The position numbers and the translations under genes are program-made. Shown piece by piece: positions 3,848 through 38,470 of a stretch of 39,247 nt of DNA. The DNA comes from Clostridia bacterium (GTDB lineage Bacteria > Bacillota > Clostridia > Oscillospirales > CAG-272), in assembly GCA_017411805.1 (NCBI GenBank), contig JAFQPI010000069.1, forward strand, positions 1 through 39,247, in the 5' to 3' direction. Each line of letters opens with the position of its first letter. Position 1 is the stretch's first letter. The notes under the pieces are model-generated. The model was not told where the DNA came from. It worked only from the letters and a program-made list of their open reading frames with translations, and searched no databases.

Positions 3848-3913
3848 CCCTAACGCAACTGATTTCAGATTTACGCATTTTCAGATTGCAAAATCTCCGG
3901 GAAAGGATCTAAT

Positions 3914-6109: not shown

Positions 6110-6119
6110 CAAAAATTCA

Positions 6120-6149
6120 CCCGCCTCCTTTCGATAGGAGGCGGGTTTC
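6120..6149. terminator. Convergent terminator between the scaffoldin gene and the fliB remnant
   Basis: CCCGCCTCCT at 6120-6129 pairs with AGGAGGCGGG at 6136-6145, followed by T-rich sequence on the plus strand and preceded by an A-rich stretch that becomes a T tract on the minus strand. It lies between genes facing each other and probably serves both. Confidence 0.85.
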
Positions 6150-6152
6150 ATT

Positions 6153-6638
6153 TTAAAACAAAAACTCACTCATAATTGCTTCGGTATTGTCCTCGGAGTA
6201 TTCGATCTCCTCGGAGACGATACGCGCGGCGAAACAGATATCTCCGCATTTTGCGGTGCAGGAGGCGAGCAATCTTTCGCAAAAAAGCGAAAAACCGAGG
6301 GCGGCGCGGATCTCGTATTCGTCCGCCGCCACGGAAAGATGCCTGTAAACAAAATACGCCAAAGCACGCAGGAGCGGCTTTTCATGCTCGGCGGCGGGTA
6401 GCCGTACGGGAGTCGAACATAATTGCCTCACGGCGATTACTTTTCGCGTCTTTCGGCGTGCTTTTACTCGCAAGGTTAATTATGTTCGACTCCCGTACGG
6501 CTACCCATCCTTCAGCAACGAGTACTTTTTCATTGTTTCACCGTCGACATCTATCTCCCATCCGGCGCAACAGCTGTGTCGGCAGGCATCGGCTATACAT
6601 TTGAACTGAAGGTAATATCTCGGTGCATATAGCTTCAT
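6153..6638 (-). pseudogene. Broken fliB-like gene (flagellin lysine N-methylase family), centre deleted
   Basis: Two fragments of one family lie in order on the minus strand. The 5' piece (6638 to 6501) has a GGAG ribosome site and encodes 45 residues with the FliB start pattern: a YYLQFKCIADACRHSCCAGW segment (the CxxxxCxxxCC cluster), then DVDGETMKKY and a stop. The 3' piece (about 6395 to 6153) encodes LLRALAYFVYRHL...EEIEYSEDNTEAIM, the usual FliB C-terminus, and ends in TAA. FliB proteins are usually near 370-400 residues, so about 250 central residues are missing. At the junction sits a 111-base segment made of two perfect 29-base inverted repeats around a 53-base spacer. The gene begins 18 bases after the histidine phosphatase stop, suggesting a former operon. 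No flagellar gene is present here. Family assignment rests on remembered motifs. Confidence 0.75.
6396..6506. repeat. Perfect 29-bp inverted repeat with 53-bp spacer inside the fliB remnant
   Basis: Bases 6396-6424 and 6478-6506 are exact reverse complements. The arm contains TTCGACTCCCGTACGGCTAC, which looks like the T-loop and 3' end of a tRNA, but no cloverleaf can be folded around it. It sits exactly where the middle of fliB is missing. It could be a mobile-element scar, a pair of recombination sites around an invertible spacer, or a chimeric assembly join. Confidence 0.85.
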
Positions 6639-18631: not shown

Positions 18632-21600
18632 TTACGAATCGATAGTCGAGATAGTCAGAGTGGTCTCCTCGAGGACGTCGAGAAGCACCCGTACGGTATC
18701 GAGCGAAGTCATGATGGTGACGTTATTCTCTGTCGCGTAGCGGCGGATAAGCGCACCGTCGCTTGCAGAGCCGACCGAGTCGATATCGCGGGTGTTGATT
18801 ACGTACGCGATGTGACCCTGTGCGAGTGCTCTTGCGATCTCGTCGCCGTCCTCCTCAAGCTTCTTCATAACGTGGGTGCGGATGCCGTTTTCCTTGAGGA
18901 ATTTTGCGGTTCCCGAGGTAGCCTCTATATTGAAGCCGAGGTTGTAGAAGCGGCGGATGAGGGGAAGAGCCTCTTCCTTATCCTTGTCCGCGATGGTCGC
19001 GAATACGGTACCGTAATTCTGAAGCTTCATGCCCGAAGCCTGAAGTGCCTTATAGAGTGCGCGGTAGAACTTGTCGTCATATCCGATAGCCTCGCCCGTC
19101 GACTTCATCTCGGGGGAGAGATATGCATCGAGTCCGCGGAGCTTGTTGAAGGAGAATACGGGTACCTTGACGTACCAACGCTTCTTCTCCTCGGGGTAGA
19201 TATCAAAGATTCCCTGCTCCTTGAGTGACTTGCCGAGGATTACCTCGGTTGCAATGTCCGCAAGGCTGTAGCCTGTCGCCTTCGAGAGGAAGGGTACGGT
19301 ACGCGAGGAACGGGGATTGACCTCGATGATATATACGTCGTCGTGCTCGTCAACGATGAACTGAATGTTGTAAAGACCAACGATTCCGATGCCGAGACCG
19401 AGCTTCTTTGCATACTGAAGGATGATGCCCTTGACCTTATCCGAGATCGAGAAGGGGGGATATACGCTGATCGAGTCGCCGCTGTGGACGCCTGTACGCT
19501 CAACGAGCTCCATAATGCCGGGTACGAATACGTTTCTGCCGTCGCAGATGGCGTCGACCTCGACCTCCTTGCCGCTGATGTACTTGTCAACGAGAACGGG
19601 CTTGTCCTCGTCGATCTCAACCGCGGTCTTGAGGTAGGTGCGGAGCTGTTCCTCGTTACCTACGATCTGCATGGCTCTGCCGCCGAGAACGAAGGAGGGA
19701 CGAACAAGTACGGGATATCCGATCTCTGCCGCAGCCGCAAGACCGTCCTCTATCTTAGTAACTGCCTTACCCTTTGCGCGGGGGATATTCAGCTCGTTAA
19801 GAAGATTTTCGAAAGCGTTTCTGTCCTCTGCGCGGTCGATAGCGGCGCAATCGGTGCCGATGATCTTGACGCCGAGATCGTCGAGCGGCTGTGCGAGGTT
19901 GATCGCGGTCTGTCCGCCGAGGGATGCGATAACGCCCTCGGGCTTCTCAAACTCGATGATGTTCATAACGTCCTCGGGAGTGAGGGGCTCGAAATAGAGC
20001 TTGTCCGCGGTGGTATAGTCGGTCGAAACCGTCTCGGGGTTGTTGTTGATGATGATAGCCTCGTAGCCCGCCTTCTTGATGGTCATTACGGCGTGAACGG
20101 TCGAGTAGTCGAACTCAACGCCCTGACCGATTCTGATCGGACCCGCGCCGAGAACGACGATCTTCTTCTTATCGGTGAGGATCGAGGCATTCTCTCCCGT
20201 GTAGGAGGAGTAAAAATAGGGGATATACGCGCCTGTGTGGCAGGTATCAACCATTCTGAATACGGGGAAAAGGTTATGCTCCTTGCGGAAGTTGAATACG
20301 TCAATTTCCGTGCACTTCCACATTCTTGCAACGTACTTATCCGAGAAGCCCATCTTCTTTGCTGCTCTGAGTGTCTCAAGCTCGAATGCGTGAGCCTTGA
20401 GGGTCTCCTCCATATCGACGATGTTCTTGATCGCCTCGAGGAAGAAGGGAGTGATCTGAGTAATTTCGTGTACCTTTTCAACCGTGATGCCGCGTGCGAG
20501 AAGCTCTGCGATAGCAAAGATGTTGTCGTCGCGGAAGGTGGAGATATATTCGAGAATCTCATCGTTCGACATATTATCGAACTTGGGATGATATACGTGG
20601 TGTACGCCGACCTCAAGCGAGCGCATGCCCTTAAGGAGACATTCCTCAAGATTCGATCCGATGCCCATGACCTCGCCCGTTGCCTTCATCTGAGTTCCGA
20701 GCTGATTCGATGCCGTTGTGAACTTATCGAAGGGGAAGCGGGGGAGCTTTGCGATGACGTAATCGAGCTCGGGCTCGAATGCGGCGTTGGTATTTGCGAT
20801 CTTGATCTCCTCGAGCGACATACCGACCGCGATCTTTGCGGTAACTCTTGCAATGGGGTAACCCGAAGCCTTGGATGCGAGTGCCGAAGAACGGGAAACT
20901 CTGGGGTTGACCTCGATGAGGTAGTATTCGCTTGAATGTGGGTTGAGCGCGAACTGTACGTTACAGCCGCCCTCGATCTTGAGCTCCTTGATCAGCTTGA
21001 TAGCCGAATCGTTGAGCATCTTCTTATCGTGATCCGAGAGGGTCATAATGGGAGCGACAACGAGAGAGTCGCCGGTATGAACGCCGACGGGGTCGATGTT
21101 CTCCATGCCGCAGATGGTGATGGCGTGGTCGTTCGAGTCACGCATAACCTCAAACTCGATCTCCTTATATCCCTTGACGCTCTTCTCGATGAGAACCTGA
21201 TGTACGGGAGAAAGACGGAAGGCATTTGTGCCGATCTCGATAAGCTCCGCCTCATTGTAAGCAAATCCGCCGCCCGTGCCGCCGAGGGTGAACGCGGGAC
21301 GGAGTACTACGGGATAACCGATGCGCTTCGCCGCTGCCTTTGCCTCTTCAAGATCGTAGGTGATCTCGGAGGGGATTACGGGCTCGCCGATCGACTGGCA
21401 AAGCTCCTTGAAGAGCTCGCGGTCCTCGGCGCGTTCGATAGATTCGCTCGAGGTTCCGAGAAGCTCGACTCGGCACTCCTTGAGAACGCCCTTCTTTTCA
21501 AGCTGCATTGCGAGGTTGAGACCCGTCTGTCCGCCGATTCCGGGAAGGATCGCGTCGGGACGCTCATAGCGGAGGATCTTTGCGATATATTCAAGTGTAA

Positions 21601-21805
21601 GCGGCTCCATGTAGACCTTGTCCGCGATGGTGGTGTCGGTCATGATGGTTGCGGGGTTGGAGTTTACGAGAACTACCTCGTAGCCCTCTTCCTTGAGCGC
21701 GAGACACGCCTGCGTGCCCGCATAGTCAAACTCCGCCGCCTGACCGATTACGATGGGTCCCGAGCCGATGATGAGAATCTTCTTCAGATCTGTTCTTTTT
21801 GCCAT
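18632..21805 (-). CDS. carB: Carbamoyl phosphate synthase large subunit
   Basis: CarB makes carbamoyl phosphate from bicarbonate, ammonia and two ATP, the first step of pyrimidine synthesis. The 1057-residue protein begins MAKRTDLKKILIIGSGPIVI and shows the duplicated carboxyphosphate and carbamate halves (GSGPIVIGQAAEFDYAG at the start and GAGPIRIGQGVEFDYS mid-protein), each with ATP-grasp signatures (VEVNPRVSRSSALASKA and IEVNPRSSRTVPFLSKA), and a C-terminal MGS-like allosteric domain (NLGFNIEATSGTAKFLKENG). The frame is open 41 codons further upstream, through a repeat, but the start at 21805 has an AGAGG site and matches the family. The usual partner carA, the glutaminase subunit, is not in the window. 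Confidence 0.95.
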   Translation of the reverse strand: MAKRTDLKKILIIGSGPIVIGQAAEFDYAGTQACLALKEEGYEVVLVNSNPATIMTDTTIADKVYMEPLTLEYIAKILRYERPDAILPGIGGQTGLNLAMQLEKKGVLKECRVELLGTSSESIERAEDRELFKELCQSIGEPVIPSEITYDLEEAKAAAKRIGYPVVLRPAFTLGGTGGGFAYNEAELIEIGTNAFRLSPVHQVLIEKSVKGYKEIEFEVMRDSNDHAITICGMENIDPVGVHTGDSLVVAPIMTLSDHDKKMLNDSAIKLIKELKIEGGCNVQFALNPHSSEYYLIEVNPRVSRSSALASKASGYPIARVTAKIAVGMSLEEIKIANTNAAFEPELDYVIAKLPRFPFDKFTTASNQLGTQMKATGEVMGIGSNLEECLLKGMRSLEVGVHHVYHPKFDNMSNDEILEYISTFRDDNIFAIAELLARGITVEKVHEITQITPFFLEAIKNIVDMEETLKAHAFELETLRAAKKMGFSDKYVARMWKCTEIDVFNFRKEHNLFPVFRMVDTCHTGAYIPYFYSSYTGENASILTDKKKIVVLGAGPIRIGQGVEFDYSTVHAVMTIKKAGYEAIIINNNPETVSTDYTTADKLYFEPLTPEDVMNIIEFEKPEGVIASLGGQTAINLAQPLDDLGVKIIGTDCAAIDRAEDRNAFENLLNELNIPRAKGKAVTKIEDGLAAAAEIGYPVLVRPSFVLGGRAMQIVGNEEQLRTYLKTAVEIDEDKPVLVDKYISGKEVEVDAICDGRNVFVPGIMELVERTGVHSGDSISVYPPFSISDKVKGIILQYAKKLGLGIGIVGLYNIQFIVDEHDDVYIIEVNPRSSRTVPFLSKATGYSLADIATEVILGKSLKEQGIFDIYPEEKKRWYVKVPVFSFNKLRGLDAYLSPEMKSTGEAIGYDDKFYRALYKALQASGMKLQNYGTVFATIADKDKEEALPLIRRFYNLGFNIEATSGTAKFLKENGIRTHVMKKLEEDGDEIARALAQGHIAYVINTRDIDSVGSASDGALIRRYATENNVTIMTSLDTVRVLLDVLEETTLTISTIDS

Positions 21806-21856
21806 GTTTCTACCTCTTTCTATTTTCAGTTCATTGTATTTCATTACGGTTAGCAT

Positions 21857-22046
21857 CTCTCCCTCCACCGTGGGCAAGCCACGGTCCCCCTCCCTCCTCA
21901 GAGGGAGGCAAGAAGTTTGTGCGAACATACCGCACAGAGGTATTAATATAGTAACTATATAAAAATTAGAAACGCTATGTTAGCACTCTCAACCTTGGCT
22001 CCCTCTGAGGAGGGAGCTGTCACGCTTATGCGTGACTGAGGGAGAG
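21857..22046. repeat. Hairpin element with CTCTCCCTC ends between pyrC and carB
   Basis: The ends CTCTCCCTC (21857-) and GAGGGAGAG (-22046) are inverted, and each arm closes with a CTCCTCAGAGGGAG palindrome. The arms differ in the middle: one holds ACCGTGG/CCACGGT, the other GTCACGC/GCGTGAC. A short AT-rich interior of about 85 bases has no gene. The GTCACGC form is common in gut Clostridia as I remember it. Confidence 0.8.
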
Positions 22047-22055
22047 ATAATAAAA

Positions 22056-22118
22056 TCGGAAAATTTTCGCCTTAGCGAAAATTCACCTTAACTCTGCACT
22101 CTGCACTCTGCACTTTCC
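22056..22118. repeat. Hairpin plus CTCTGCA heptads running into the end of pyrC
   Basis: A GAAAATTTTCGCC/GGCGAAAATTC-type hairpin (about 22058-22084) is followed by tandem 7-base units CTCTGCA from about 22091 to 22113. The units include the pyrC stop codon and code its last residues. Confidence 0.8.
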
Positions 22119-23305
22119 CAAACAACTCTGCCTCCGCAAACCGTCAAGAGATTCTTGCCGATCAGCTTTTCGCCCAAAATCGGCGTTGCTTTACCCTGCG
22201 ACTGAATGAAGTCCTCGTCAACCGTGATCTCCGCGTCGAGATCCCAGATCGAGAAAGACTTACCGAGGGGGAGACCGAATCTCTTTCTCGGATTGGTGGA
22301 AAGACAATCTATAAGCTTTTCGAGCGGGATGATTCCCGTCTTGACGAGCTTTGTGTACATCCATGGGAACGCGAAGTCGAGTCCGACGATACCGAAGGGG
22401 CTGCCCTCGAGTCCGCGGCTCTTCTCTTCCGCCGAGTGGGGCGCGTGGTCGGTTGCTATCATCTCGAGAGTTCCGTCGAGGATTCCCTCCAAGAGAGCCT
22501 CACGGTCGGAAGCCGCGCGGAGCGGCGGATTCATCTTGAATCTTCCTTCCTCGCGAAGGTCGGAGTCATCCATTATAAGATAATGCGGTCCCGTCTCGCC
22601 CGAAACGTCAAGTCCGCTCTTTTTTGCCTGACGGAGGAGCTCAACGCTCTCCTTTGCCGAAATATGGCAGACGTGATAAGCACATCCGGTCTTGGCAACC
22701 AGCTCAAGATCGCGCGCGATCTGCGCATACTCGCTCTCGGAGCAGATTCCGCGGTGACCGTGTGCACGCGCGTACTCGCCGTCGTGGATATAACCGCCTC
22801 GCAGAAGCGAATTTACCTCGCAATGAGCAACGATCAGCTTGCCGAGCGACTTTGCCGTCCTCATCGCGTCTTCCATCATCGCGTTGCTCTGAACTCCGCG
22901 TCCGTCGTCCGAAAAGGCAACGACGTCGGGTGCCATTCCCGCAAGATCGGCAAGCTCCTCGCCCTTTTCGCCAACTGTGATCGCACCGTAGGGAATGACC
23001 TCGACCGATGCGTCGCGCTTGATTATATCGAGCTGGAGTGCGAGATTTTCAACACTGTCGGGCACGGGATTCAGATTCGGCATCGTGCAAACGGTAGTGT
23101 AACCGCCGTGCGCCGCCGCGAGCGAACCGCTCTTTACCGTCTCTTTATATGAAAAACCCGGCTCACGGAAATGCACATGCACGTCACAAAAGCCGGGAAA
23201 AACAGCGATATTATCCTTATCGGAAAAATCGGAAACAGCAACACCACCGTCGATCAGAGAAGGATCAACGGGACCCATGAATTTTACCTTGCCGAAACAC
23301 TTCAT
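22088..23305 (-). CDS. pyrC: Dihydroorotase (class I)
   Basis: Dihydroorotase closes carbamoyl aspartate to dihydroorotate, the third step. The metal motif DVHVHFREPG (His43, His45) and ATDHAPH (Asp286, His287, His290) mark a class I enzyme, and VAHCE and YHVCHIS carry further metal histidines. The length of 405 residues is slightly under the usual 420-430. The last eight residues (SAECRVQS) are coded by the CTCTGCA heptad repeat, so the natural end has been replaced or extended by repeat sequence. A GGAGG site eight bases before the ATG and a consensus promoter 34 bases upstream make it the first gene of the pyrimidine cluster, divergent from purE. Confidence 0.95.
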   Translation of the reverse strand: MKCFGKVKFMGPVDPSLIDGGVAVSDFSDKDNIAVFPGFCDVHVHFREPGFSYKETVKSGSLAAAHGGYTTVCTMPNLNPVPDSVENLALQLDIIKRDASVEVIPYGAITVGEKGEELADLAGMAPDVVAFSDDGRGVQSNAMMEDAMRTAKSLGKLIVAHCEVNSLLRGGYIHDGEYARAHGHRGICSESEYAQIARDLELVAKTGCAYHVCHISAKESVELLRQAKKSGLDVSGETGPHYLIMDDSDLREEGRFKMNPPLRAASDREALLEGILDGTLEMIATDHAPHSAEEKSRGLEGSPFGIVGLDFAFPWMYTKLVKTGIIPLEKLIDCLSTNPRKRFGLPLGKSFSIWDLDAEITVDEDFIQSQGKATPILGEKLIGKNLLTVCGGRVVWESAECRVQS

Positions 23306-23547: not shown

Positions 23548-24042
23548 ATGAAGTACAAAGTCGGTATCGTTATGGGAAGCGACAGCGATCTTCCCGTTAT
23601 CGAAAAAGCAACGAATACCCTCAGTGCGCTCGGCATCGGATTCGAAGTGCACGTGTATTCTGCGCACCGCACCCCCGTCGAGGCGGCAGAGTATGCCCAG
23701 ACTGCCGAGGAGCGCGGAATAGGTGTCATCATCGCGGCTGCGGGAATGGCTGCGCACCTTGCGGGAGCCCTGGCGGCACGCACTACCCTGCCCGTTATCG
23801 GAATCCCCTGTAAATCTACAAATTTAGGCGGCATTGAAGCCCTTCTGTCCACAGTACAGATGCCCGGAGGTATCCCTGTAGCTACTGTTGCGATCGACGG
23901 AGGCGTCAATGCCGCTTTGCTTGCCGCAGAGATCCTCGCACTCTCCGACCCCGAGCTCGCAGAAAAGCTCAAGGCGCACAGACAGGCGCAGTACGAAGGA
24001 GTTATTGCTAAAGATAAAGCGATAGCAGAGAGATTCAATTGA
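23548..24042 (+). CDS. purE: N5-carboxyaminoimidazole ribonucleotide mutase
   Basis: PurE forms CAIR, the carboxylated intermediate of step six of IMP synthesis. The substrate-binding motifs GSDSDLPV (residues 10-17) and YSAHRTP (37-43) and the later [17 protein letters not shown] segment match class I PurE, which uses the product of PurK. No purK is in the window, so that gene is either elsewhere or dispensable at high CO2. The 164-residue length is normal. It is the first gene of the purine cluster, read from a consensus promoter. A 300-base repeat-filled gap separates it from purC. Confidence 0.95.
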
Positions 24043-24341: not shown

Positions 24342-25028
24342 ATGGCAAACAATCTCGTTTACACAGGAAAAACCAAGGACGTATTCGCGCTTGAGAACGG
24401 CAACTACCTTCTCAAGTTCAAGGACGACTGCACCGGCAAGGACGGCGTTTTCGATCCCGGAGAAAACTCGGTAGGTCTCACCATTGAGGGCGTCGGCGAC
24501 GTCAACCTCCGTATGTCCATCTACTACTTCGAAAAGATCAACGCCGCAGGCATCAAGACCCACTATATCTCCGCAGATCTCGCTAACACCACTATGGAAG
24601 TCGTTCCCGTCAAGCCATTCGGCAAGGGACTTGAGGTCATCTGCCGCAACAAGGCTGTCGGCTCCTTCCTCCGCCGCTACTCCGACTACATCGAAGAGGG
24701 CGCAGACCTTCCCTCCTACGTTGAAATGACTTTTAAGAACGACGCTAAAGGCGATCCTCTTGTAACAAAAGAGGGACTTGTTGTTCTCGGCGTTATGACC
24801 GACGAGCAGTACGACGCTATGGCTGATATGACCCGCAAGATCACGAAGATCATCTCCGACGATCTCGCTGAGCGCGGACTTGTTCTCTACGACATCAAGT
24901 TTGAGTACGGCTACAATGCAGACGGCGAAGTCATCCTCATCGACGAGATCGCATCGGGTAATATGCGCGTTTACAAGGACGGCGAATATATCGATCCCAT
25001 GACCCTCTCGAAGCTCTTCTTCGCATAA
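24342..25028 (+). CDS. purC: Phosphoribosylaminoimidazole-succinocarboxamide synthase
   Basis: PurC (SAICAR synthetase) joins aspartate to CAIR using ATP, step seven of IMP synthesis. The N-terminal [20 protein letters not shown] strand pair, [16 protein letters not shown] near residues 105-120, and the signature [22 protein letters not shown] are typical. At 228 residues it is a standard short bacterial form. A GGGAGA site precedes the ATG. The stop codon lies nine bases before the purF start, so the two are read together and probably translationally linked. Confidence 0.95.
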
Positions 25029-25037
25029 GAGATATAG

Positions 25038-26459
25038 ATGGGCGGATTTTTCGGGTGTGCAAAGCGCTCGGAGGCTATCTCAGACGTATTCTTCGGCACC
25101 GATTACCATTCACATCTCGGTACTCGGTGCGGAGGAATCGCCTCTTACAACCCCGAGATCGGTCTGCAAAGACAGATCCACAGCATTGCAAACTCACCCT
25201 TCAGAACCAAATTTGAAAATATCTTTGAGGAGATAGCGGGAAATTCCGCGATCGGCTGTATCAGCGACTCGGACCCCCAGCCCCTTCTCATTCGCTCGAA
25301 TCTCGGCACTTACGCGATCTGCACGGTCGCAATGATCAACAACTCGGATGAGCTTCTCGCAGAGGTAATGTCGAATTCGGGCCACATAAACGCTATGACG
25401 GGCGGTGCGGTCAACTCAACGGAGCTTATCGCCGCCATCATCAACACCAAGCCATCGTTTACCGAGGGAATCAAGTACGCACAGAGCCGCATTGACGGCT
25501 CTGCGACGATCCTCATTCTCACCGACGAGGGCAAGATAATCGCCGCGCGCGACCGCGTCGGCAGGCTTCCCGTCGAGCTCGGCGTCTGCGAGGACGGATA
25601 CTGCGTCGCCTTCGAGGATTTTGCTTACAAGAAGCTCGGCTACTCCGATCTTCGCGAGCTCGGACCCGGCGAGATCGTCGAGATCACCGCGGACGGCGTG
25701 ACCGTTCTTGCAGAGCCCGGCCGTGAGATGAAGATCTGCGCCTTTCTCTGGTCATATTACGGATATCCGACCTCGGATTACGAGAACGTCAACGTCGAAT
25801 GTATGCGCTGCCGCAACGGCTCGATAATGGCAAAGCGCGAGGTCGCCGAGGGCAAGACAGAGGGCATCGACTACGTATGCGGAGTTCCCGATTCGGGCAC
25901 GCCGCACGCTATCGGCTACGCAAATCAGAGCCACATCCCCTTTGCGCGCCCCTTCATTAAATATACTCCCACCTGGCCGAGATCCTTCACCACTCCCTCG
26001 CAGGTCAACCGTGCGAAGGTGGCAAAGATGAAGCTCATTCCCGTAAGCGAGCTGATCCACGGCAAGAATCTTCTCTTCGTTGACGACTCGATCGTTCGCG
26101 GCACACAGCTCCGCGAGACGGTTGAATTCCTCTACGATAACGGCGCGGCTTCGGTCCATATGCGAAGCGCGTGTCCGCCGATCATGTACGGCTGCAAATA
26201 TCTCCATTTCTCTCCCTCGACGAGCGACAACGACCTGATTGCGCGAAAGATCATCCTTGAGCTTGAGGGCGAGGAAGGCTTTGAACACATCGAAGAATAC
26301 TCGGACGGCTCGACCGAACGCGGTAAATCTTTCAGAAAAGCTCTTTGCGATAAGCTCAACTTCGCCTCCCTCGATTTCCAGACACTCGACGGCATCATCG
26401 AGTCAATCGGCATCGACCGCGATAAGCTCTGTACCTATTGCTGGAACGGGAAGAGTTAA
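25038..26459 (+). CDS. purF: Amidophosphoribosyltransferase-like protein lacking the N-terminal catalytic cysteine
   Basis: PurF normally uses glutamine to aminate PRPP, the first step of purine synthesis. The PRPP motif LLFVDDSIVRGTQ (345-357) is intact, and cysteines C234, C386, C465 and C468 fall where the Bacillus enzyme has its four Fe-S ligands (the last pair in LCTYC at the C-terminus). The glutaminase half is unusual. Family members begin CGVFG after processing, with Cys as nucleophile; here the start is MGGFFGC, with Gly in place of Cys. The LQHRGQ and NG motifs of the glutamine site read HLGTRC and INN. The protein is full length (473 residues). It may use free ammonia, or an amidotransferase partner, or have a different role; it is the only purF candidate here. 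It starts nine bases after purC with a weak AAGAGA site. Confidence 0.85.
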   Translation: MGGFFGCAKRSEAISDVFFGTDYHSHLGTRCGGIASYNPEIGLQRQIHSIANSPFRTKFENIFEEIAGNSAIGCISDSDPQPLLIRSNLGTYAICTVAMINNSDELLAEVMSNSGHINAMTGGAVNSTELIAAIINTKPSFTEGIKYAQSRIDGSATILILTDEGKIIAARDRVGRLPVELGVCEDGYCVAFEDFAYKKLGYSDLRELGPGEIVEITADGVTVLAEPGREMKICAFLWSYYGYPTSDYENVNVECMRCRNGSIMAKREVAEGKTEGIDYVCGVPDSGTPHAIGYANQSHIPFARPFIKYTPTWPRSFTTPSQVNRAKVAKMKLIPVSELIHGKNLLFVDDSIVRGTQLRETVEFLYDNGAASVHMRSACPPIMYGCKYLHFSPSTSDNDLIARKIILELEGEEGFEHIEEYSDGSTERGKSFRKALCDKLNFASLDFQTLDGIIESIGIDRDKLCTYCWNGKS

Positions 26460-26642: not shown

Positions 26643-27707
26643 ATGCTTCATTCTAATTCTAAATCCGACAGCTACGCAGCGGCGGGCGTTGATATCACAG
26701 CCGGCTACCGCGCTGTCGAGCTTATGAAAAAACATATCGCACGCACCAAAAACGAGGGTTGCCTCGACGACGTCGGCGGCTTCGGCGGCTGCTTCGGTCT
26801 CCCCATCGCAGGTATGGAAGAGCCCGTGCTCGTTTCGGGCACCGACGGCTGCGGTACCAAGGTCAAGCTCGCGATCCTTATGGACAAGCATGATACCATC
26901 GGAATCGATGCCGTTGCTATGTGCGTAAACGACATCATCTGCTGCGGCGCGCGCCCCCTCTTCTTCCTTGATTACATCGCTTGCGGCAAGAATATCCCCG
27001 AAAAGATCGCAGAGATCGTCGGCGGCGTTGCCGAGGGTTGCGTTCAGTCGGGCGCGGCTCTTATCGGCGGTGAGACCGCAGAGCATCCCGGTATGATGCC
27101 CGTGGAGGACTATGACCTCGCAGGCTTCGCTGTCGGTATCGTTGACAAAAAGAAGATCCTCGACAACACCCGTATGAAGGCGGGCGACGTCGTTATCGCT
27201 CTCCCCTCCACGGGTATCCACTCGAACGGTTTTTCGCTCTGCCGTAAGGTCTTCGACATAGACAACAATAACCCCGAGCTCTACGTCCCCCGCGAGGAGC
27301 TTGGCGGCAAGAGTATCGCGGAAGCTCTGATCGTTCCCACCCGCATCTACGTAAAGTCGATCCTCGCACTTCTCGAGAAGGTTGACGTCAAGGGCATCTC
27401 CCACATCACGGGCGGCGGCTTCTACGAGAATATCCCGAGATCGATCCCCGCGGGACTCGGCGCAAAGATCGAAAAATCCGCAATCAAGGTCCTTCCCATC
27501 TTCGATATGATCGCAAAATGGGGCAATATCCCGGAGAGAGATATGTTCAACACCTACAATATGGGCGTCGGCATGAGCGTAGTCGTCCCCGCAGATGAGG
27601 TCGAGACCGCTCTCGAGATCCTCCGGTCGGGCGGCGAAGAGGCTTACGTCATCGGTGAGATCGTTTCCGCTGAAAGTCTTGGCGGAGAGCAGATAGAAAT
27701 TATTTAA
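26643..27707 (+). CDS. purM: Phosphoribosylformylglycinamidine cyclo-ligase (AIR synthase)
   Basis: PurM closes the imidazole ring, making AIR from FGAM with ATP, step five. The start [20 protein letters not shown], the glycine-rich ATP region [46 protein letters not shown] and [13 protein letters not shown] are all family motifs. The 354-residue size is normal. An AAAGGA site precedes the ATG by about 12 bases. Its stop codon is directly followed by heptad repeats. Confidence 0.95.
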
Positions 27708-27938: not shown

Positions 27939-28571
27939 ATGAGCAGAACCACCAAAATCGCCGTCCTCGTCTCGGGCGGCGGAACGAATCTTCAGGCTCT
28001 GATCGACGCCGAGAAGCGTGGCGAGCTTGGAGCAGGCAAGATCAGCCTCGTTCTCGCATCGAAACCCGGAGTTTACGCGCTTGAGCGTGCCGCGCAGAAC
28101 GGCATCGACTCCGTCGTTCTTCCCCGAAAGGATTACGCCGACATCGCCGCATATTCGAAGGCTCTTGCCGAAACGCTGACTGAGGCGGGCATCGACCTCG
28201 TCGTGCTTGCGGGCTTCCTCACCATCTTTGACGAGCAGGTCTACGCGGCTTTCCCGAATAAGATCCTCAATGTTCACCCCGCGCTGATCCCCTCCTTCTG
28301 CGGAAAGGGATTTTACGGTCTCCACGTTCACGAAGCCGCGCTCGAAAAGGGCGTCAAGGTTTCGGGCGCAACGGTTCATATCGTCATTCCCGAATGCGAC
28401 GCGGGACCCATCGTGCTCCAAAAAGCAGTCGAGGTCAAGCAAGATGACACCCCCGAGACCCTCCAGCGCCGCATTATGGAGGAAGCCGAATGGAAGATCC
28501 TCCCCGAAGCCGTCCGCCTTTTCTGCGACGGTAAGATCGAGGTCGAGGATAATAAGGTATACATAAAATGA
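27939..28571 (+). CDS. purN: Phosphoribosylglycinamide formyltransferase (folate-dependent)
   Basis: PurN transfers a formyl group from formyl-tetrahydrofolate to GAR, step three. The substrate loop VLVSGGGTNLQALIDA (9-24), the catalytic ILNVHPALIPSFCGKGFYG segment (Asn111, His113) and HIVIPECDAGPIVLQ with the catalytic Asp are clear. At 210 residues it has normal length. A TTGGAG site precedes the start. Its stop overlaps the start of the DUF3795 gene as ATGA, so that small gene is coupled to it. Confidence 0.95.
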   Translation: MSRTTKIAVLVSGGGTNLQALIDAEKRGELGAGKISLVLASKPGVYALERAAQNGIDSVVLPRKDYADIAAYSKALAETLTEAGIDLVVLAGFLTIFDEQVYAAFPNKILNVHPALIPSFCGKGFYGLHVHEAALEKGVKVSGATVHIVIPECDAGPIVLQKAVEVKQDDTPETLQRRIMEEAEWKILPEAVRLFCDGKIEVEDNKVYIK

Positions 28572-28831
28572 AAAACCTGTCCGTCTGCGGAATCGACTGC
28601 AATGCTTGCAAGTTCTTCCTTGATAAAGCCTGCGTCGGCTGCCGAAAGGTCGCTCCCGAGGGTAAAACCGTTTGGAACGGCAGATGCGACCTTTACGATT
28701 GCGCGGTAAATGAAAACCTTGACCACTGCGGTCAATGCAAAAAATTCCCTTGTGCCACCCTCAAAGAATGGGCATCAAACGAAAACACCGAGCGTATTCA
28801 GAATTTGATTGATTTGAATAATCGCACATAG
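28568..28831 (+). CDS. DUF3795-type cysteine-rich small protein
   Basis: This 87-residue protein has nine cysteines in pairs typical of DUF3795: CGIDCNACKFF, CVGCRK, CDLYDCA and CGQCKKFPC. The spacing suggests metal or Fe-S binding; no function is established for the family as far as I know. There is no signal peptide. It overlaps the purN stop by four bases (ATGA), so its translation depends on purN and its amount should track purine synthesis. A repeat element follows. It may be a chance passenger, but such an overlap usually means shared expression. Confidence 0.8.
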   Translation: MKNLSVCGIDCNACKFFLDKACVGCRKVAPEGKTVWNGRCDLYDCAVNENLDHCGQCKKFPCATLKEWASNENTERIQNLIDLNNRT

Positions 28832-29353: not shown

Positions 29354-30070
29354 ATGAAGATCTCATCTATCGCAGAAGAACTGAATTCCCTTGCCTACCA
29401 CGGCAGAGGCATCATCATCGGCAAGTCTGCCGACGGCAAAAAGGCTGTAACTGCTTACTTCATCATGGGTCGCAGCGTCAACAGCCGCAACCGCGTCTTC
29501 GTCACAGAAGGTGACGCTATGCGCACCAAGGCTTTTGACGAATCGAAGATGGTTGACCCGCATCTCATCATCTATTATCCCGTCCGCGTGCTCGGCAACA
29601 AGACCATCGTCACCAACGGTGACCAGACCGACACGATCTACAACCTTATGGACCGTCAGATGACCTTTGAGCAGGCTCTTCGCACTCGTGAATTCGAGGA
29701 TGACAAGCCAAATTTCACGCCCCGAATTTCGGGAATCATACACACCGAGGGCGGCGCGATGAACTACGCGATGTCCATCCTCAAGAGCGCAGAGGGCGAC
29801 GACTCCTCCTGCGAGAGATTTACTTACGCATACTCGAACCCGATCGCAGGTCGCGCAAAGTTCATCCACACCTATGGCGGCGACGGCGATCCCCTTCCCT
29901 CTTTTGAAGGCGAGCCAAAGACCCTCTCTCTCCCCGACTGCCCGATCGACGAGCTGACTGATCTGATCTGGACAAACCTCAACGAGGATAACAAGGTTTC
30001 CCTCTTCGTCCGCTATATCGACATCGAAAGCGGCGCGACCGAGACCAGGATCGTTAATAAAAACGCGTAA
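29354..30070 (+). CDS. purO: IMP cyclohydrolase of the PurO type
   Basis: The 238-residue protein resembles PurO, the IMP cyclohydrolase first known from archaea, unrelated to the cyclohydrolase half of PurH. It begins with RGIIIGKSADGKKAVTAYFI and FIMGRSVNSRNRVF and includes PRISGIIHTEGGAMNYAMS. The role would be ring closure of FAICAR to IMP, the last step. This fits the neighbouring gene, which codes only the AICAR transformylase half of PurH. The frame runs 24 codons further upstream, but the start at 29354 follows a TAAGGAG site and matches the family start. Identification is by remembered similarity and context. Confidence 0.8.
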   Translation: MKISSIAEELNSLAYHGRGIIIGKSADGKKAVTAYFIMGRSVNSRNRVFVTEGDAMRTKAFDESKMVDPHLIIYYPVRVLGNKTIVTNGDQTDTIYNLMDRQMTFEQALRTREFEDDKPNFTPRISGIIHTEGGAMNYAMSILKSAEGDDSSCERFTYAYSNPIAGRAKFIHTYGGDGDPLPSFEGEPKTLSLPDCPIDELTDLIWTNLNEDNKVSLFVRYIDIESGATETRIVNKNA

Positions 30071-30918: not shown

Positions 30919-32103
30919 ATGAAGACTTTCGAACTCAAATACGGCTGTAACCCCAACCAGAAGCCCGCTTCCATCTATATGCACGATGGCTCCGATCTCC
31001 CCATCGAGATCCTCTGCGGCCGTCCCGGCTACATCAATTTTCTTGATGCCTTCAACTCCTGGCAGCTCGTCAAGGAGCTTAAGGAAGCCCTCGGTCTCCC
31101 CGCAGTAACCTCCTTCAAGCACGTTTCTCCCACCTCCGCCGCTGTCGGTACTCCCCTTTCCGATAAGCTCAAGAAGGCTTGCTTCGTTGACGATATCGAG
31201 GGTCTCGACGATTCCCCCCTCGCTTGCGCTTACGCAAGAGCGCGCGGCGCGGACAGACTTTGCTCCTTCGGCGACTGGGTCGCTCTCTCCGATGTCTGCG
31301 ACGTTACGACAGCAAAGATGATCGCGCGCGAGGTCTCGGACGGCATCATCGCTCCCGGCTACGACCCCGAAGCTCTTGAAATTCTCAAGGGCAAGCGCGG
31401 CGGCAACTACAACATCGTCAAGATTGATCCCAATTTTGTCCCCGATCCTCAGGAAAAGAAGCAGGTCTTCGGCATCACCTTCGAGCAGGGACGTAACAAT
31501 TTCAAGATCGACCGCGAGCTTCTTTCCAACATCGTAACCGAGAACAAGGCTCTCTCGGACGAAGCCGCACGCGACCTCATCATCTCGCTCATCACACTCA
31601 AATATACACAGTCAAACTCTGTCTGCTATGCGGTTGACGGTCAGGCTATCGGCGTTGGCGCGGGTCAGCAGTCTCGAATCCACTGCACAAGACTCGCAGG
31701 CACCAAGGCTGACACCTGGTTCCTCCGCCAGCACGACAAGGTCCTCGGCCTTCCCTTCCGCGCAGACCTCAAGCGCGCGGACCGCGACAACGTCATCGAC
31801 GGCTATATCAACAAGAACGAGGAAGACGTTTGCGCAGACGGCATCTGGCAGAAGTACTTCACCGAGCAGCCCGCTCCCCTCACCGCTGAGGAGATCCGCG
31901 CTTATCTCGACACGATCACGGGCGTAGCACTCGGCTCCGACGCGTTCTTCCCCTTCTCGGACAGCATCGAGCGCGCGAAGAAGAGCGGCGTTTCCTACGT
32001 TGCCGAGCCCGGCGGATCTATCCGCGACGACGCCGTTATCGAAGCCTGCGACAAGTACGGCATGATCATGGCGTTCACCGGAATGAGACTCTTCCATCAT
32101 TAA
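30919..32103 (+). CDS. purV: Stand-alone AICAR formyltransferase (C-terminal half of PurH)
   Basis: This 394-residue protein matches only the AICAR transformylase half of bifunctional PurH. It starts LKYGCNPNQKPASIY, a motif that in PurH lies about 200 residues in, carries the catalytic Lys-His pair in TSFKHVSPTSAAVG (Lys67, His68), and ends with GSIRDDAVIEACDKYGM...FTGMRLFHH, like PurH. The IMP cyclohydrolase domain is missing; the purO gene 848 bases upstream supplies it. The reaction puts a formyl group on AICAR (step nine). The AGAGG site upstream supports the start. Between purO and this gene lie only repeats. The name purV follows usage for stand-alone forms. Confidence 0.92.
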   Translation: MKTFELKYGCNPNQKPASIYMHDGSDLPIEILCGRPGYINFLDAFNSWQLVKELKEALGLPAVTSFKHVSPTSAAVGTPLSDKLKKACFVDDIEGLDDSPLACAYARARGADRLCSFGDWVALSDVCDVTTAKMIAREVSDGIIAPGYDPEALEILKGKRGGNYNIVKIDPNFVPDPQEKKQVFGITFEQGRNNFKIDRELLSNIVTENKALSDEAARDLIISLITLKYTQSNSVCYAVDGQAIGVGAGQQSRIHCTRLAGTKADTWFLRQHDKVLGLPFRADLKRADRDNVIDGYINKNEEDVCADGIWQKYFTEQPAPLTAEEIRAYLDTITGVALGSDAFFPFSDSIERAKKSGVSYVAEPGGSIRDDAVIEACDKYGMIMAFTGMRLFHH

Positions 32104-32298: not shown

Positions 32299-33570
32299 AT
32301 GAACGTTCTCGTCATCGGCAGCGGCGGCCGTGAACACGCCGTTATAAAGTCGATCAAGAAAAATCCCGCCGTCGAGACTATCTGGTGTCTGCCCGGAAAC
32401 GGAGGCATCGCATCCGACGCCGTCTGCGTTGATATCGGCGCGAAGGATATTGACGGCATCGTGAAATTTGCGTCCGAAAATCCCGTCGATTACGCCATCG
32501 TCACCCCCGACGATCCGCTCGTCCTCGGTTGCGTTGACGCGCTTTCCGCCATCGGAATCCCCTGCTTCGGCCCCGACAAAAAGGCGGCGATCATTGAAGG
32601 AAGCAAGGCGTTCTCGAAGAATCTTATGAAAAAATACTCGATCCCGACCGCCGCATACGAGATCTTTTACGATATGGATAAGGCAATTTCTTATCTTCAG
32701 GACAAGGAAATGCCCATCGTCATCAAAGCGGACGGACTCGCGCTCGGCAAGGGCGTTATCATTGCCGAAACTCTCGCCAAGGCAGAGGACGCGGTTCGCT
32801 CGATGATGGCGGACAAGGTCTTCGGCGCTTCGGGCGACCACGTCGTTATCGAGGAATTTCTCACGGGACCCGAGGTCTCGGTGCTCGCCTTCACCGACGG
32901 CAAAACCGTTATTCCGATGGTCTCCTCTATGGACCACAAGCGCGCGCACGACAACGATGAAGGTCTGAACACCGGCGGAATGGGCACCGTTGCGCCCAAC
33001 CCCTACTACACCGACGCGATCGCCGACGAATGCATGAAGACGATCTTCACCCCGACTATTAACGCGATGAACGCCGAGGGACGCACCTTCAAGGGTTGTC
33101 TCTACTTCGGACTGATGCTGACACCGAAGGGACCCAAGGTCATCGAGTACAACTGCCGTTTCGGCGACCCCGAAACGCAGGTCGTCCTTCCTCTTCTCGA
33201 AAGTGATTTACTCACCGTTATGCAGGCGGTCACCGAGGAAAGACTTTCCGAGGTCGATGTAAAATTTGCAACAGGCAAATCGGCTTGCTGTGTAATTATG
33301 GCATCTGCGGGCTATCCGCAGAGCTATGAAAAGGGATACGAGATCACCATCCCCGCCGAGCTTTCCGACAGCGTTTACGTTGCGGGCGCGGCACTAAAGG
33401 ACGGCAAGCTCCTAAACAGCGGCGGACGCGTCCTCGGAGTCACGTCGGTTGCCGATACTCTTGAGGGTGCCATCGCCGCTTCCTACGAAAAGGTATCGCA
33501 GATCCACTTTGATAACGCCTACTGCCGCAAGGACATCGGTCAGAGAGCACTGAAGGCGCTTAAAAAGTGA
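32299..33570 (+). CDS. purD: Phosphoribosylamine-glycine ligase (GAR synthetase)
   Basis: PurD joins glycine to phosphoribosylamine with ATP, step two. The 423-residue protein begins MNVLVIGSGGREHAVIKSI and has the ATP-grasp core: IVIKADGLALGKGVIIAET, VVIEEFLTGPEVSVLAFTDG, DHKRAHDNDEGLNTGGMG and YNCRFGDPETQVVLPLL. The frame extends 23 codons upstream through the heptad repeat, but the AAAGGA site and family alignment fix the start at 32299. Its product is unstable phosphoribosylamine's first stable derivative, so activity must match the neighbouring PurF-like protein. It ends in TGA within a TGATCAGTGGTCA palindromic stretch. Confidence 0.95.
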   Translation: MNVLVIGSGGREHAVIKSIKKNPAVETIWCLPGNGGIASDAVCVDIGAKDIDGIVKFASENPVDYAIVTPDDPLVLGCVDALSAIGIPCFGPDKKAAIIEGSKAFSKNLMKKYSIPTAAYEIFYDMDKAISYLQDKEMPIVIKADGLALGKGVIIAETLAKAEDAVRSMMADKVFGASGDHVVIEEFLTGPEVSVLAFTDGKTVIPMVSSMDHKRAHDNDEGLNTGGMGTVAPNPYYTDAIADECMKTIFTPTINAMNAEGRTFKGCLYFGLMLTPKGPKVIEYNCRFGDPETQVVLPLLESDLLTVMQAVTEERLSEVDVKFATGKSACCVIMASAGYPQSYEKGYEITIPAELSDSVYVAGAALKDGKLLNSGGRVLGVTSVADTLEGAIAASYEKVSQIHFDNAYCRKDIGQRALKALKK

Positions 33571-34741: not shown

Positions 34742-37700
34742 ATGGTTTACAGAATCTACGTTGAAAAAAAGCCCGGTTTTGACAACGAGGCGCGAGCGCT
34801 CGCAGGAGAGCTTCGCGAACTCCTCGGTATCTCGGGTGTAAGATCCGTCCGTCAGATCAATCGCTACGACTGCGAAGGCATCTCGAAGGAACTCTTCGAC
34901 TACTGCGTCCGCACCGTTTTCTCCGAGCCCCAGATGGACAACGCCACCGCTGACGTCGATCTTTCGGGCGCGCGCGTGCTCGCATCCGAATTCTTGCCCG
35001 GTCAGTTCGACCAGAGAGCAGACTCGGCGGCGCAGTGCATCCAGCTGATCTCCCGCGGCGACCGTCCCACAGTCCGTTCGGCTAAGATCTACGCGATCTA
35101 CGGCGAAATTTCCGACGCGGAATTTGCCGAGATCACAAAATTCCTCATCAACCCCGTTGAATCGCGCGAAGCAAGCCTCGAGACCTTCGAGACCCTCCGG
35201 GCGGAATATCCCGTCCCCGCTGACGTCAAGATCCTCGATGGCTTTACCGCCCTCGACCGCGCGGGACTCGAGGCGTTCGTCTCCGACTACGCCCTCGCAA
35301 TGGACATTGACGACATCACCTTCTGTCAGAAATACTTCAAGACCGAGGGCCGCGATCCATCCATCACCGAGATCCGTATGATCGACACCTACTGGTCCGA
35401 CCATTGCCGTCACACCACCTTCCTCACCGAGATCGATTCGGTCACATTTGAGGACGAGCTTTTGCAGAAGGCTTACGATAATTACATTGGAATCCGTAAG
35501 GAGCTCGGAAGAACCAAGCCCGTGTCGCTGATGGACATCGGCACTCTTGCCGCAAAGTACCTCAAATCCACGGGTCAGCTCCGTAACCTCGACGAGAGTG
35601 AGGAGATCAACGCCTGCACCGTCAAGATCAAGGTAAACGTTGACGGCGAGGATCAGGATTGGCTTCTCCTCTTCAAGAACGAGACCCACAACCACCCGAC
35701 CGAGATCGAGCCCTTCGGCGGTGCGGCGACCTGCATCGGCGGCGCGATCCGCGACCCGCTTTCGGGCAGAAGCTACGTTTACGCCGCAATGCGCGTGACG
35801 GGTGCGGCTGACCCCACAAAGCCCATTTCCGAGACCATCAAGGGCAAGCTCCCTCAGCGTCAGATCGTAACCGGCGCGGCTGCGGGCTACTCCTCCTACG
35901 GTAACCAGATCGGTCTCGCAACAGGTCTTGTAAACGAAATTTATCACCCCGGCTACGCCGCAAAGCGTATGGAGATCGGTGCCGTTATCGCCGCCGCTCC
36001 CGCTGATTGCGTACGACGCGAGTGTCCGCTTCCCGGCGACTATGTCATCCTTCTCGGCGGCAGAACGGGACGCGACGGCTGCGGCGGTGCTACCGGTTCA
36101 TCAAAATCCCACACAGCAACCTCCCTTGCCGACTGCGGCGCCGAGGTTCAGAAGGGTAACGCTCCCGAGGAGCGCAAGCTTCAGCGTCTTTTCCGCAACG
36201 CCGAGGCTTCCCGCCTTATCAAGCGTTGTAACGATTTTGGCGCGGGCGGTGTTTCTGTTGCTATAGGTGAATTGGCGGATGGCTTGACCATCAACCTCGA
36301 CCGCGTTCCCAAGAAGTACGAGGGTCTTGACGGCACAGAGCTTGCTATCTCCGAGTCTCAGGAGAGAATGGCTGTCGTTGTTGCCGCCTCCGATGCCGCA
36401 CGCTTTATCGAGATCGCGACCGCGGAAAACCTCGAGGCTACCCACGTTGCAACCGTGACCGAAGAGCCGAGACTCACTATGTTCTGGCGCGGCAAGCAGA
36501 TCGTTGACCTTTCCCGCGAGTTCCTGAACTCCAACGGCGCGGAAAAGCACATCGACATCAAGGTTCCCGCTATTGATAAGGAAGCCCTTTCCAAGGTTTC
36601 TATCTTCGACTCTTACCTTTCCTTCACCGATAATTACCTCGCGCTCGCGGGCAATCTCAACTGCTGTTCGGGCAGAGGTCTTTCCGAGCGTTTTGACTCC
36701 ACCATCGGCGCGGGCACGGTCATGATGCCGTGGGGCGGCAAGAATCAGCTCTCGCCGATCCAGACGATGGTACATAAGATCTCCGTCGAAAAGGGTCACA
36801 CCGACGACGTTTCCCTTATGAGCTGGGGCTACAACCCCTTCCTCTCCGAAGCTTCGCCCTACCACGGCGCGTATATGGCGGTCGTTGAGTCGATCTGCCG
36901 TCTCGTTGCTTCGGGTGCAAAATACGAGGACGTTTACCTCACCTTCCAGGAATATTTCAAGAAGCCCGGACGCGACGGCGAGCGTTGGGGTCAGCCTATG
37001 GCTGCTCTCCTCGGCGCATTTGCCGCACAGACCGCGCTCGGCAGCGCCGCTATCGGCGGTAAGGACTCGATGAGCGGCTCGGCGCAGGATCTTGACGTTC
37101 CTCCCACCCTCGTTTCCTTCGCCGTAACGACCGACAAGGTGGAAAATATGATCTCCTCCGAGTTCAAGACGGCGGGCAACAAGGTGCTTCTCCTCAAGCC
37201 GAAGTACGACGAAAACGGTCTCCCCGTGACTGAATCGCTCTTCTCGATCTTCTCCGCAGTAACCGCAGCTCAGCGCGCGGGTGATTGCGTAACCGCATTT
37301 ACTCCCGGCATCGGCGGCGTAGCCGAGGCTCTTATGAAGATGGGATTCGGTAACAACATCGGTGTTGATCTGAACGAAAACGTATCGGTTTCCGATATCT
37401 TCAACCTTGCGGGCGGCTCGTTCATACTTGAAGTAAAACCCGAGACAAACGTCTCTGTGGAAAACTTCGAACTCGTCGAGCTCGGTACGCTCAACGCAGA
37501 GGGCGTTATCACTCTCGGCGGCGAGAGTGTTTCGCTTGCCGATCTCCTCAAGATCTCCGAGGACAAGCTTGAGTCTGTTTACGCTTGCAATATAACTCCC
37601 CCCGAGCGCAAGATCGAGACCGTAAGCTGTGCTCCCAAGGCATATCCCGCACACGCTCCCATCGCCGTAGCAAGACCCAAGGTCCTCATCCCCGTATTCC

Positions 37701-38470
37701 CCGGCACGAACTGCGAATTTGACACCGCAAAGGCGTTTGCGGATGCGGGCGCGGATCCCGAGATCTTCGTTATCGCAAACCTCAGCGCAGAGACCGTCGC
37801 GCGTTCTGTTGAAGAATTCGCAAAGAAGGCGCGCGAGAGCCAGATCATCTTCATCCCCGGCGGCTTTTCGGGCGGCGACGAGCCCGACGGATCGGGTAAG
37901 TTCATCACCGCATTCTTCCGCAACGGCGAGGTCAAGGACGCAGTCACCGACCTTCTTGACAACCGCGCGGGACTTATGGGCGGTATCTGCAACGGCTTCC
38001 AGGCACTCATCAAGCTCGGACTCGTTCCCTACGGCAGGATCATCGACACCGACGAGAACTGCCCGACGCTCACATACAACGACATCTCGCGCCATCAGTC
38101 GAAGATCGTTCGCGTAAGAGTTGCTTCGAACTCTTCTCCCTGGCTTTCGGCTTGCAACGTCGGCGAAGTCTACAGCGTTCCGATCTCGCACGGCGAGGGT
38201 CGCTTCGTAGCCTCCGACGAGCTTCTTGCTTCTCTTGCGGCTAACTCCCAGATCATGACTCAGTACGTTGACGCTTGCGGAAACGCGACGGGCGACATCC
38301 GCTTCAACCCCAACGGAAGCGCGAACGCTGTCGAGGGCATCCTTTCTCCCGACGGCAGAGTCTTCGGTAAGATGGGACACTCGGAGCGTAAGGGCAACGG
38401 ACTCTATCTCAACGTGCCCGGTGAGTATGATATGAAGCTGTTTGAGTCGGCAGTTAAATATTTTAAGTGA
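34742..38470 (+). CDS. purL: Phosphoribosylformylglycinamidine synthase, single-chain form
   Basis: PurL converts FGAR to FGAM with glutamine and ATP, step four. The 1242-residue chain contains a PurS-like N-terminus (about 1-80, MVYRIYVEKKPGF), the duplicated ATP-binding core (LLFKNETHNHPTEIEPFGGA; GGRTGRDGCGGATGSSKSHT; a second half from about 640) and a C-terminal class I glutaminase (about 975-1242). The glutaminase triad is complete: Cys1083 in GGICNGFQAL and His1150/Glu1152 in HGEGRF. Many Bacillota use three separate proteins (PurL, PurQ, PurS) instead; this is the fused clade. The ATG follows an AAAGG site. It is the last gene of the purine block and is followed directly by a hairpin terminator. 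Confidence 0.95.
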   Translation: MVYRIYVEKKPGFDNEARALAGELRELLGISGVRSVRQINRYDCEGISKELFDYCVRTVFSEPQMDNATADVDLSGARVLASEFLPGQFDQRADSAAQCIQLISRGDRPTVRSAKIYAIYGEISDAEFAEITKFLINPVESREASLETFETLRAEYPVPADVKILDGFTALDRAGLEAFVSDYALAMDIDDITFCQKYFKTEGRDPSITEIRMIDTYWSDHCRHTTFLTEIDSVTFEDELLQKAYDNYIGIRKELGRTKPVSLMDIGTLAAKYLKSTGQLRNLDESEEINACTVKIKVNVDGEDQDWLLLFKNETHNHPTEIEPFGGAATCIGGAIRDPLSGRSYVYAAMRVTGAADPTKPISETIKGKLPQRQIVTGAAAGYSSYGNQIGLATGLVNEIYHPGYAAKRMEIGAVIAAAPADCVRRECPLPGDYVILLGGRTGRDGCGGATGSSKSHTATSLADCGAEVQKGNAPEERKLQRLFRNAEASRLIKRCNDFGAGGVSVAIGELADGLTINLDRVPKKYEGLDGTELAISESQERMAVVVAASDAARFIEIATAENLEATHVATVTEEPRLTMFWRGKQIVDLSREFLNSNGAEKHIDIKVPAIDKEALSKVSIFDSYLSFTDNYLALAGNLNCCSGRGLSERFDSTIGAGTVMMPWGGKNQLSPIQTMVHKISVEKGHTDDVSLMSWGYNPFLSEASPYHGAYMAVVESICRLVASGAKYEDVYLTFQEYFKKPGRDGERWGQPMAALLGAFAAQTALGSAAIGGKDSMSGSAQDLDVPPTLVSFAVTTDKVENMISSEFKTAGNKVLLLKPKYDENGLPVTESLFSIFSAVTAAQRAGDCVTAFTPGIGGVAEALMKMGFGNNIGVDLNENVSVSDIFNLAGGSFILEVKPETNVSVENFELVELGTLNAEGVITLGGESVSLADLLKISEDKLESVYACNITPPERKIETVSCAPKAYPAHAPIAVARPKVLIPVFPGTNCEFDTAKAFADAGADPEIFVIANLSAETVARSVEEFAKKARESQIIFIPGGFSGGDEPDGSGKFITAFFRNGEVKDAVTDLLDNRAGLMGGICNGFQALIKLGLVPYGRIIDTDENCPTLTYNDISRHQSKIVRVRVASNSSPWLSACNVGEVYSVPISHGEGRFVASDELLASLAANSQIMTQYVDACGNATGDIRFNPNGSANAVEGILSPDGRVFGKMGHSERKGNGLYLNVPGEYDMKLFESAVKYFK

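Follow-up and report, generated by a model that had tools for sequence, protein, structure and literature searches.

A PurF homologue without its catalytic cysteine in a Clostridia bacterium: a probable ammonia-dependent phosphoribosylamine synthase

We found that a Clostridia bacterium from the gut carries, among its purine genes, a PurF-like protein in which the catalytic N-terminal cysteine and the glutamine-binding residues are gone, and that this protein is probably the organism's phosphoribosylamine (PRA) synthase, working with free ammonia and not with glutamine. Textbooks have glutamine supply the nitrogen for the opening step of purine synthesis. The protein is encoded on the plus strand of the window (the whole stretch of 39,247 nucleotides that was analysed, contig JAFQPI010000069.1 of assembly GCA_017411805.1), and it belongs to a family of glutaminase-less PurF proteins, called NC-PurF here as distinct from standard-type, or canonical, PurF. 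The source genome of the window, G000, is 84.7% complete.

Results

The open reading frame at 25038..26459 (+) encodes 473 residues with the N-terminus MGGFFGC, and in the alignments its MGGFFG segment (25038..25055, +) places Gly2 where mature PurF has the catalytic Cys1. This is how the earlier note had described the protein, and the reading frame bears it out: an in-frame TAG stands immediately 5' of the ATG, so that a longer form, or an alternative start codon supplying a Cys, is ruled out. Its similarity to PurF runs across both domains and includes the VDDSIVRGT motif, placing the protein in the PurF superfamily, and the closest solved proteins by sequence are the PurF structures 1ao0 and 1gph (residues 3-415, E 6e-43). 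It lies outside the NCBIfam PurF model TIGR01134, scoring 157.6 bits, far below the curated cut-off of 350, with no N-terminal Cys nucleophile and with changed glutamine-site residues. The Pfam model GATase_7 passes narrowly (26.7 vs 25 bits), and Pribosyltran stays below its cut-off. The window protein is 27-32% identical to 15 canonical sequences from its own bacterial family.

Two alignments were used. The first has 81 rows, the window protein and the best 80 of at least 584 relatives from a scan of genome contigs; the second compares 48 NC-PurFs with 35 canonical proteins taken from 41 PurF matches over the cut-off. In the second, the Cys1 position is Gly in 43 and Ser in 5 of the NC-PurFs, whereas it is Cys in 32 and Met in 3 of the canonical rows. 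The Arg loop of the glutamine site is absent from all 48 NC-PurFs, the window protein included, the oxyanion Asn (of AHNGN) is Val, Ile or Thr in 48/48, and the glutamine-site Asp is replaced in 47/48, by Ser in the window protein; we take this Arg, Asn and Asp to be the glutamine-site residues of PurF. In the first alignment, with its best 80 of at least 584 relatives, residues 2-3 are GG in 80/81 rows (one gap), and DYHSHLGT and PFRT are invariant in 81/81. The former, D22-Y-H-S-H-L-G-T29 (25101..25124, +), replaces canonical LQHRGQ and is also invariant in 48/48 of the second set; the latter is part of P54-F-R-T-K-F59 (25197..25214, +). The glutamine-binding loop (canonical GHVRYGT) is deleted just upstream of GCISD (25254..25268, +), the Cys74 of which is not strictly conserved. 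N102 and N126 are invariant, and D77 nearly so. HLGTRC and INN had been noted earlier as altered glutamine-site motifs; HLGT and INN stand where they were placed, but the Cys of HLGTRC proved to be a local variant, position 31 being Arg in 65 of the 81 rows (window protein and best 80 of at least 584), with SHLGTRRGG as the usual motif.

Two cysteines of the N-domain were considered as substitute nucleophiles and ruled out: the Cys7 position is variable in the 81 rows (most often Ala, in 33 rows, then Ile in 15, Val in 12 and Ser in 10), and at Cys74 other residues stand in several members as well as in Bacteroidota and a phage-like copy. The ratio of mean pairwise identity in the N-domain to that in the C-domain is 0.869 for NC-PurF versus 0.867 for canonical PurF, which rules out a decaying relic. 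Thus the earlier suggestion that the glutaminase is dead or changed holds as far as the nucleophile and the glutamine-binding residues are concerned and needs refining for the rest, which has invariant motifs of its own and is not decaying. As judged from these replacements, the N-domain should not release ammonia from glutamine. Because its identity ratio matches that of canonical PurF, the N-domain has given up one function but retains, or has acquired, another, and conservation as strong as this could reflect a chemical job of its own.

The PRPP half is retained. The PRPP-binding motif VDDSIVRGT (26079..26105, +) is kept in all 48 NC-PurFs, or in 47/48 at one motif position. The putative Fe-S ligands Cys234 (25737..25739, +; also Cys in 35/35 canonical proteins), Cys386 (26193..26195, +) and Cys465-T-Y-Cys468 (26430..26441, +) are conserved in 48/48 NC-PurFs and in 81/81 rows of the alignment of the window protein with its best 80 of at least 584 relatives. 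These positions agree with the earlier report of an intact motif and cysteine set, and with four putative cluster cysteines NC-PurF would count as PurF of the Fe-S (Bacillus) type. One stretch of this half has changed: canonical NKYIGRTF, which presumably forms a flexible loop covering the PRPP site, has become KYTPTWPRSF in the window protein (Y309-TPTWPRSF317, 25962..25988, +), and other NC-PurFs have nearly the same sequence.

The alignments indicate that the MGGFFG N-terminus is a family trait and not a sequencing or assembly slip, because GG, DYHSHLGT and the four cysteines are kept across the 81 rows. In a tree of 13 NC-PurFs, 35 canonical PurFs and E. coli PurF, the NC-PurFs are split from all others with full support (midpoint root, for drawing only). 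MGGFFG-type homologues, which the earlier note had placed in other anaerobes, were found widely there, and among the holders with species names are Bacteroides finegoldii, Parabacteroides distasonis, Phocaeicola massiliensis and Peptoclostridium acidaminophilum (records filed as plasmids). In three Bacteroidota and Peptoclostridium, pepT follows the NC-PurF gene (L252, L253, L254, L256), and in the Bacteroidota gcvT comes after pepT. An NC-PurF gene (49% identical), possibly a phage-borne copy, lies at 5001-6374 of an 83-kb viral contig from IMG/VR (L226), close to a gene for an RNA ligase. No description of the family was found in the searched PMC literature, where subscription journals are largely absent, and this is no proof of novelty.

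In the window, the gene lies among those for the rest of the pathway, all on the plus strand: purE (23548..24042) and purC (24342..25028; best family match, below the curated cut-off) before it, and purM (26643..27707), purN (27939..28571), a PurO-type IMP cyclohydrolase (29354..30070; PF07826), AICAR formyltransferase (purH, formyl half only; 30919..32103), purD (32299..33570), which uses phosphoribosylamine, and purL (34742..38470) after it, identified by family matches unless otherwise indicated. A small Cys-rich DUF3795 protein (28568-28831, +) overlaps the end of purN. PurL has the glutaminase motifs GICNGFQ and SHGEG, and the GlmS-like protein of G000 keeps its Cys, so general glutaminase loss in the organism is ruled out; because PurL keeps these motifs, the purine pathway probably continues to draw on glutamine at a later step. 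No Rfam element was found at the gathering threshold in the window or in seven nitrogen-cluster loci. Further upstream, at 1907-6109 (+), the window encodes two cohesin/dockerin proteins that recall cellulosome-like systems, and one of the two has leucine-rich repeats of the BspA type.

A second, canonical purF, for which the earlier note had proposed a search, did not turn up in G000 (84.7% complete): the PurF model, applied at E up to 1, detected the NC-PurF, the GlmS-like protein and one weak match (15.5 bits). Co-occurrence was examined in 80 genomes of the source organism's bacterial family, G000 included. NC-PurF alone is present in 29 (27 with purD), Cys1 PurF alone in 17 (15 with purD), both in 17 (17 with purD), NC-PurF with a contig-edge canonical fragment in 2 (2 with purD) and Met1 PurF alone in 3 (3 with purD), while 12 have no PurF of any kind, nor any purD (0/12) or purM (0/12). 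All 64 purD-positive genomes thus carry some PurF, and in 27 of the 29 NC-only genomes purD is accompanied by NC-PurF as the only PurF-like protein. The two exceptions, G002 and G070, lack purD, and G002 (98% complete) also lacks purM. In a wider draw of 249 genomes, 14 besides G000 carry NC-PurF at E up to 1e-100. Since all 14 also have canonical PurF, the NC-only condition is, within the sample examined, a feature of the source organism's family. One control, Bacteroides ihuae, has no PurF over the cut-off (13 of the 14 controls are over it, and B. ihuae is the one control absent at E 1e-36), yet carries purD; Bacteroides probably relies on NC-PurF too, which was seen in other Bacteroidaceae and not in B. 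ihuae itself.

The gene order around NC-PurF differs from that around canonical PurF. NC-PurF occupies purF's slot, beside purE/purC and purM, in 28 of 47 loci as well as in the window, and lies outside the pur operon in 19 (10 of them with short flanks only). Of the 38 canonical loci, 17 have PurF among pur genes, 19 have it next to nitrogen genes and 2 have it in other surroundings. Adjacency to nitrogen genes is therefore 19/38 for canonical PurF versus 0/47 for NC-PurF (Fisher p = 1.0e-6, a value that overstates independence, as the genomes are related and the gene list, GS-III, Amt, asnB, guaA, pyrG and carAB, was chosen after the clusters had been seen). An effect of the distance limit is ruled out by identical counts at 4.5, 2 and 1 kb. 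Seventeen genomes carry both types. In 12 of these the Cys1 PurF has nitrogen genes next to it, in G043 and G057 it stands among pur genes, and in G036 and G060 it is in neither setting; in the remaining one, G033, it adjoins carA by coordinates, outside the loci read. G005, G007 and G066 each have two canonical PurFs, one with pur genes and one in a nitrogen cluster, and a fourth such genome (G051) has one in a nitrogen cluster and the other outside the loci read. In the midpoint-rooted tree, 14 of the 16 nitrogen-cluster PurFs included share one branch. Locus L188 reads GS-III, Amt-PII, asnB, purC, guaA, pyrG, purF, carA, carB, dapF, dapL, and L189 reads purB, guaA, glmS, pyrG, purF, carA, carB, dapF, dapL, nadE. 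Clusters of this type (L186-L189, L193, L196, L197) bring together many glutamine amidotransferase genes, in differing selections of asnB, guaA, glmS, pyrG, purF and carA, and frequently include GS-III, Amt-PII, dapF and dapL as well. The split is not absolute, because NC-PurF and Cys1 purF genes stand in tandem within one pur operon in eight loci (L028, L049, L063, L068, L071, L073, L077, L214). On the simplest reading, the glutamine PurF would serve under ammonia-poor and the ammonia PurF under ammonia-rich conditions.

A second nitrogen enzyme encoded in the window also lacks its glutaminase. CarB without CarA may be able to use ammonia, and a full-length carB (18632..21928, -) without carA is grouped here with pyrC (22088..23305, -) and pyrK-, pyrD-, pyrF- and pyrE-like genes; carA was searched for in G000 (84.7% complete) and not found. 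Genomes G015 and G027 have a carB 88% identical to that of the window, and no carA was found in them. In 10 other CarA-less genomes, out of 12 whose flanks were read, no carB was seen within those flanks. Among purD-positive genomes, 16 of the 30 with only a glutaminase-less PurF have no CarA, versus 3 of 34 with Cys1 PurF or a fragment (p = 1.2e-4); it is also missing in 13 of the 27 purD-positive NC-only genomes (p = 9e-4), the other 14 having CarA; the relatedness of the genomes means that both p-values overstate independence. In a distant family, 5/5 NC-PurF genes, from four genomes, directly adjoin carB, and each genome's single carA adjoins another carB. These carA-less carB neighbours are found at L206-L209 and L179, one of the four genomes having two such pairs. 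More carB than carA is also common in genomes without NC-PurF (at least 30 genome rows), so orphan CarB is ruled out as an NC-specific marker and direct adjacency alone is telling.

The three canonical-type PurFs with Met for Cys1 (L147 in G078, L148 in G025, L149 in G074), all in a pur operon, form one clade inside canonical PurF, and the oxyanion Asn is also changed in two of them. No NC-PurF and no CarA were found in these three genomes, and purD is present. In G025 and G078 a stop codon immediately precedes the start codon; in G074, where an in-frame extension lies upstream of the Met, the start is less certain. Going by these sequences, Met1 PurF is a second, independent loss of the glutaminase, within canonical PurF.

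Discussion

Ammonia is plentiful in the gut and rumen. In the mechanism that we propose, ammonia would enter the transferase site of NC-PurF and attack PRPP to give PRA, which PurD would then use, and selection would still act on the remodelled N-domain, probably because it serves assembly, ammonia entry or regulation. In relatives keeping both enzymes, the gene order suggests that the Cys1 PurF is probably the one for times of scarce ammonia, since its usual neighbours are genes for glutamine synthetase, for ammonium transport and for other glutamine amidotransferases. No new chemistry would be needed, because E. coli PurF in which Ala or Ser replaces Cys1 no longer uses glutamine but is still able to use ammonia, according to the passage of PMC3261824 that cites Mei and Zalkin 1989. 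Those mutants share with NC-PurF the lack of Cys1, but they were made in the laboratory, whereas NC-PurF is a natural lineage with a rebuilt N-domain. The same paper, where it deals with Methanocorpusculum, describes a PurF relative, Mlab_0150, with Ser in place of Cys1, which its authors suspect not to be a GPATase. It resembles NC-PurF in the Cys1 replacement and differs in being a fairly recent duplicate of Mlab_0202, the PurF retained in the same genome. Compared with Bacillus-type Fe-S PurF (1ao0, 1gph), NC-PurF shares the PRPP motif, the four cluster cysteines, the place in the operon and similarity over residues 3-415, and differs in the missing Cys1 and glutamine-binding residues, the other N-domain motifs, the KYTPTWPRSF loop and a C-terminal insert of about 28 residues.

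Several other explanations have to be weighed. A canonical purF might lie in the unassembled 15% of G000, leaving NC-PurF as an accessory isozyme, and the 84.7% completeness of G000 and the 17 of 80 genomes with both types, including G055 of the same genus, are in keeping with this. However, NC-PurF stands alone in 29 of the 80 genomes, 26 of which have a listed completeness of at least 90%, and chance loss of a canonical gene in all of these is implausible; we therefore regard a hidden purF as unlikely. We consider it quite unlikely that a separate glutaminase docks onto NC-PurF and feeds it ammonia, as HisH does for HisF and CarA for CarB. The remodelled yet strongly conserved N-domain would suit such docking, as would the tandem NC-PurF and Cys1 PurF genes of some operons. 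Nevertheless, the contexts of NC-PurF vary (pur operon, carB, pepT/gcvT, alone, phage-like contig), and 27 purD-positive genomes have NC-PurF with no Cys1 PurF found. The earlier note had left the choice between ammonia and a partner amidotransferase; free ammonia is favoured, because no constant partner gene or partner glutaminase was seen in the flanks read. An N-domain rebuilt for another nitrogen donor or another nucleophile seems very unlikely: the invariant D22-T29 and P54-T57 motifs with N102, N126 and the nearly invariant D77, under a relative constraint equal to that in canonical PurF, would fit this idea, but the N-terminal residue is Gly (43/48) or Ser (5/48) and not a conserved nucleophile, and Cys74 is replaced as described above. 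That NC-PurF is a PRPP-binding regulator or other phosphoribosyltransferase, as the purD-less G002 and G070 and the low TIGR01134 score might suggest, is hardly credible, since the other 27 NC-only genomes have purD, NC-PurF often stands in purF's operon slot, and these pathways would have no PurF found without it.

A more elaborate form of ammonia-dependent PRA synthesis can be offered tentatively. A gut-anaerobe lineage may have an ammonia-specific PurF whose former glutaminase domain, with DYHSHLGT, PFRT, N102 and N126, captures ammonium or gates its entry, with a carA-less CarB alongside, and with a Cys1 PurF in a nitrogen-limitation cluster completing a two-isozyme nitrogen switch; this is possible but doubtful as a whole. 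The gene-order split between the two isozymes makes such a switch directly testable.

If NC-PurF does work with ammonia, many gut and rumen bacteria would commit purine nitrogen straight from ambient ammonium, which would save the ATP of glutamine synthesis and tie purine synthesis to ammonium supply. Annotating NC-PurF proteins as 'amidophosphoribosyltransferase' would then point to the wrong substrate, and PurF inhibitors that are glutamine analogues should leave these proteins unaffected. NC-PurF would also stand in purine synthesis as a natural equivalent of ammonia-type carbamoyl-phosphate synthase (vertebrate CPS I, or CarB lacking CarA), in which the glutaminase part is inactive or absent and free ammonia is used. 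Both insert nitrogen, but in different enzymes and pathways, and the role proposed for NC-PurF is read from genomes only.

A gene for a formate/nitrite-type transporter is found in the pur operon at L009 (4081-4695) and in 17 other loci, mostly between purM and purN, and this transporter may supply formate to the purine pathway.
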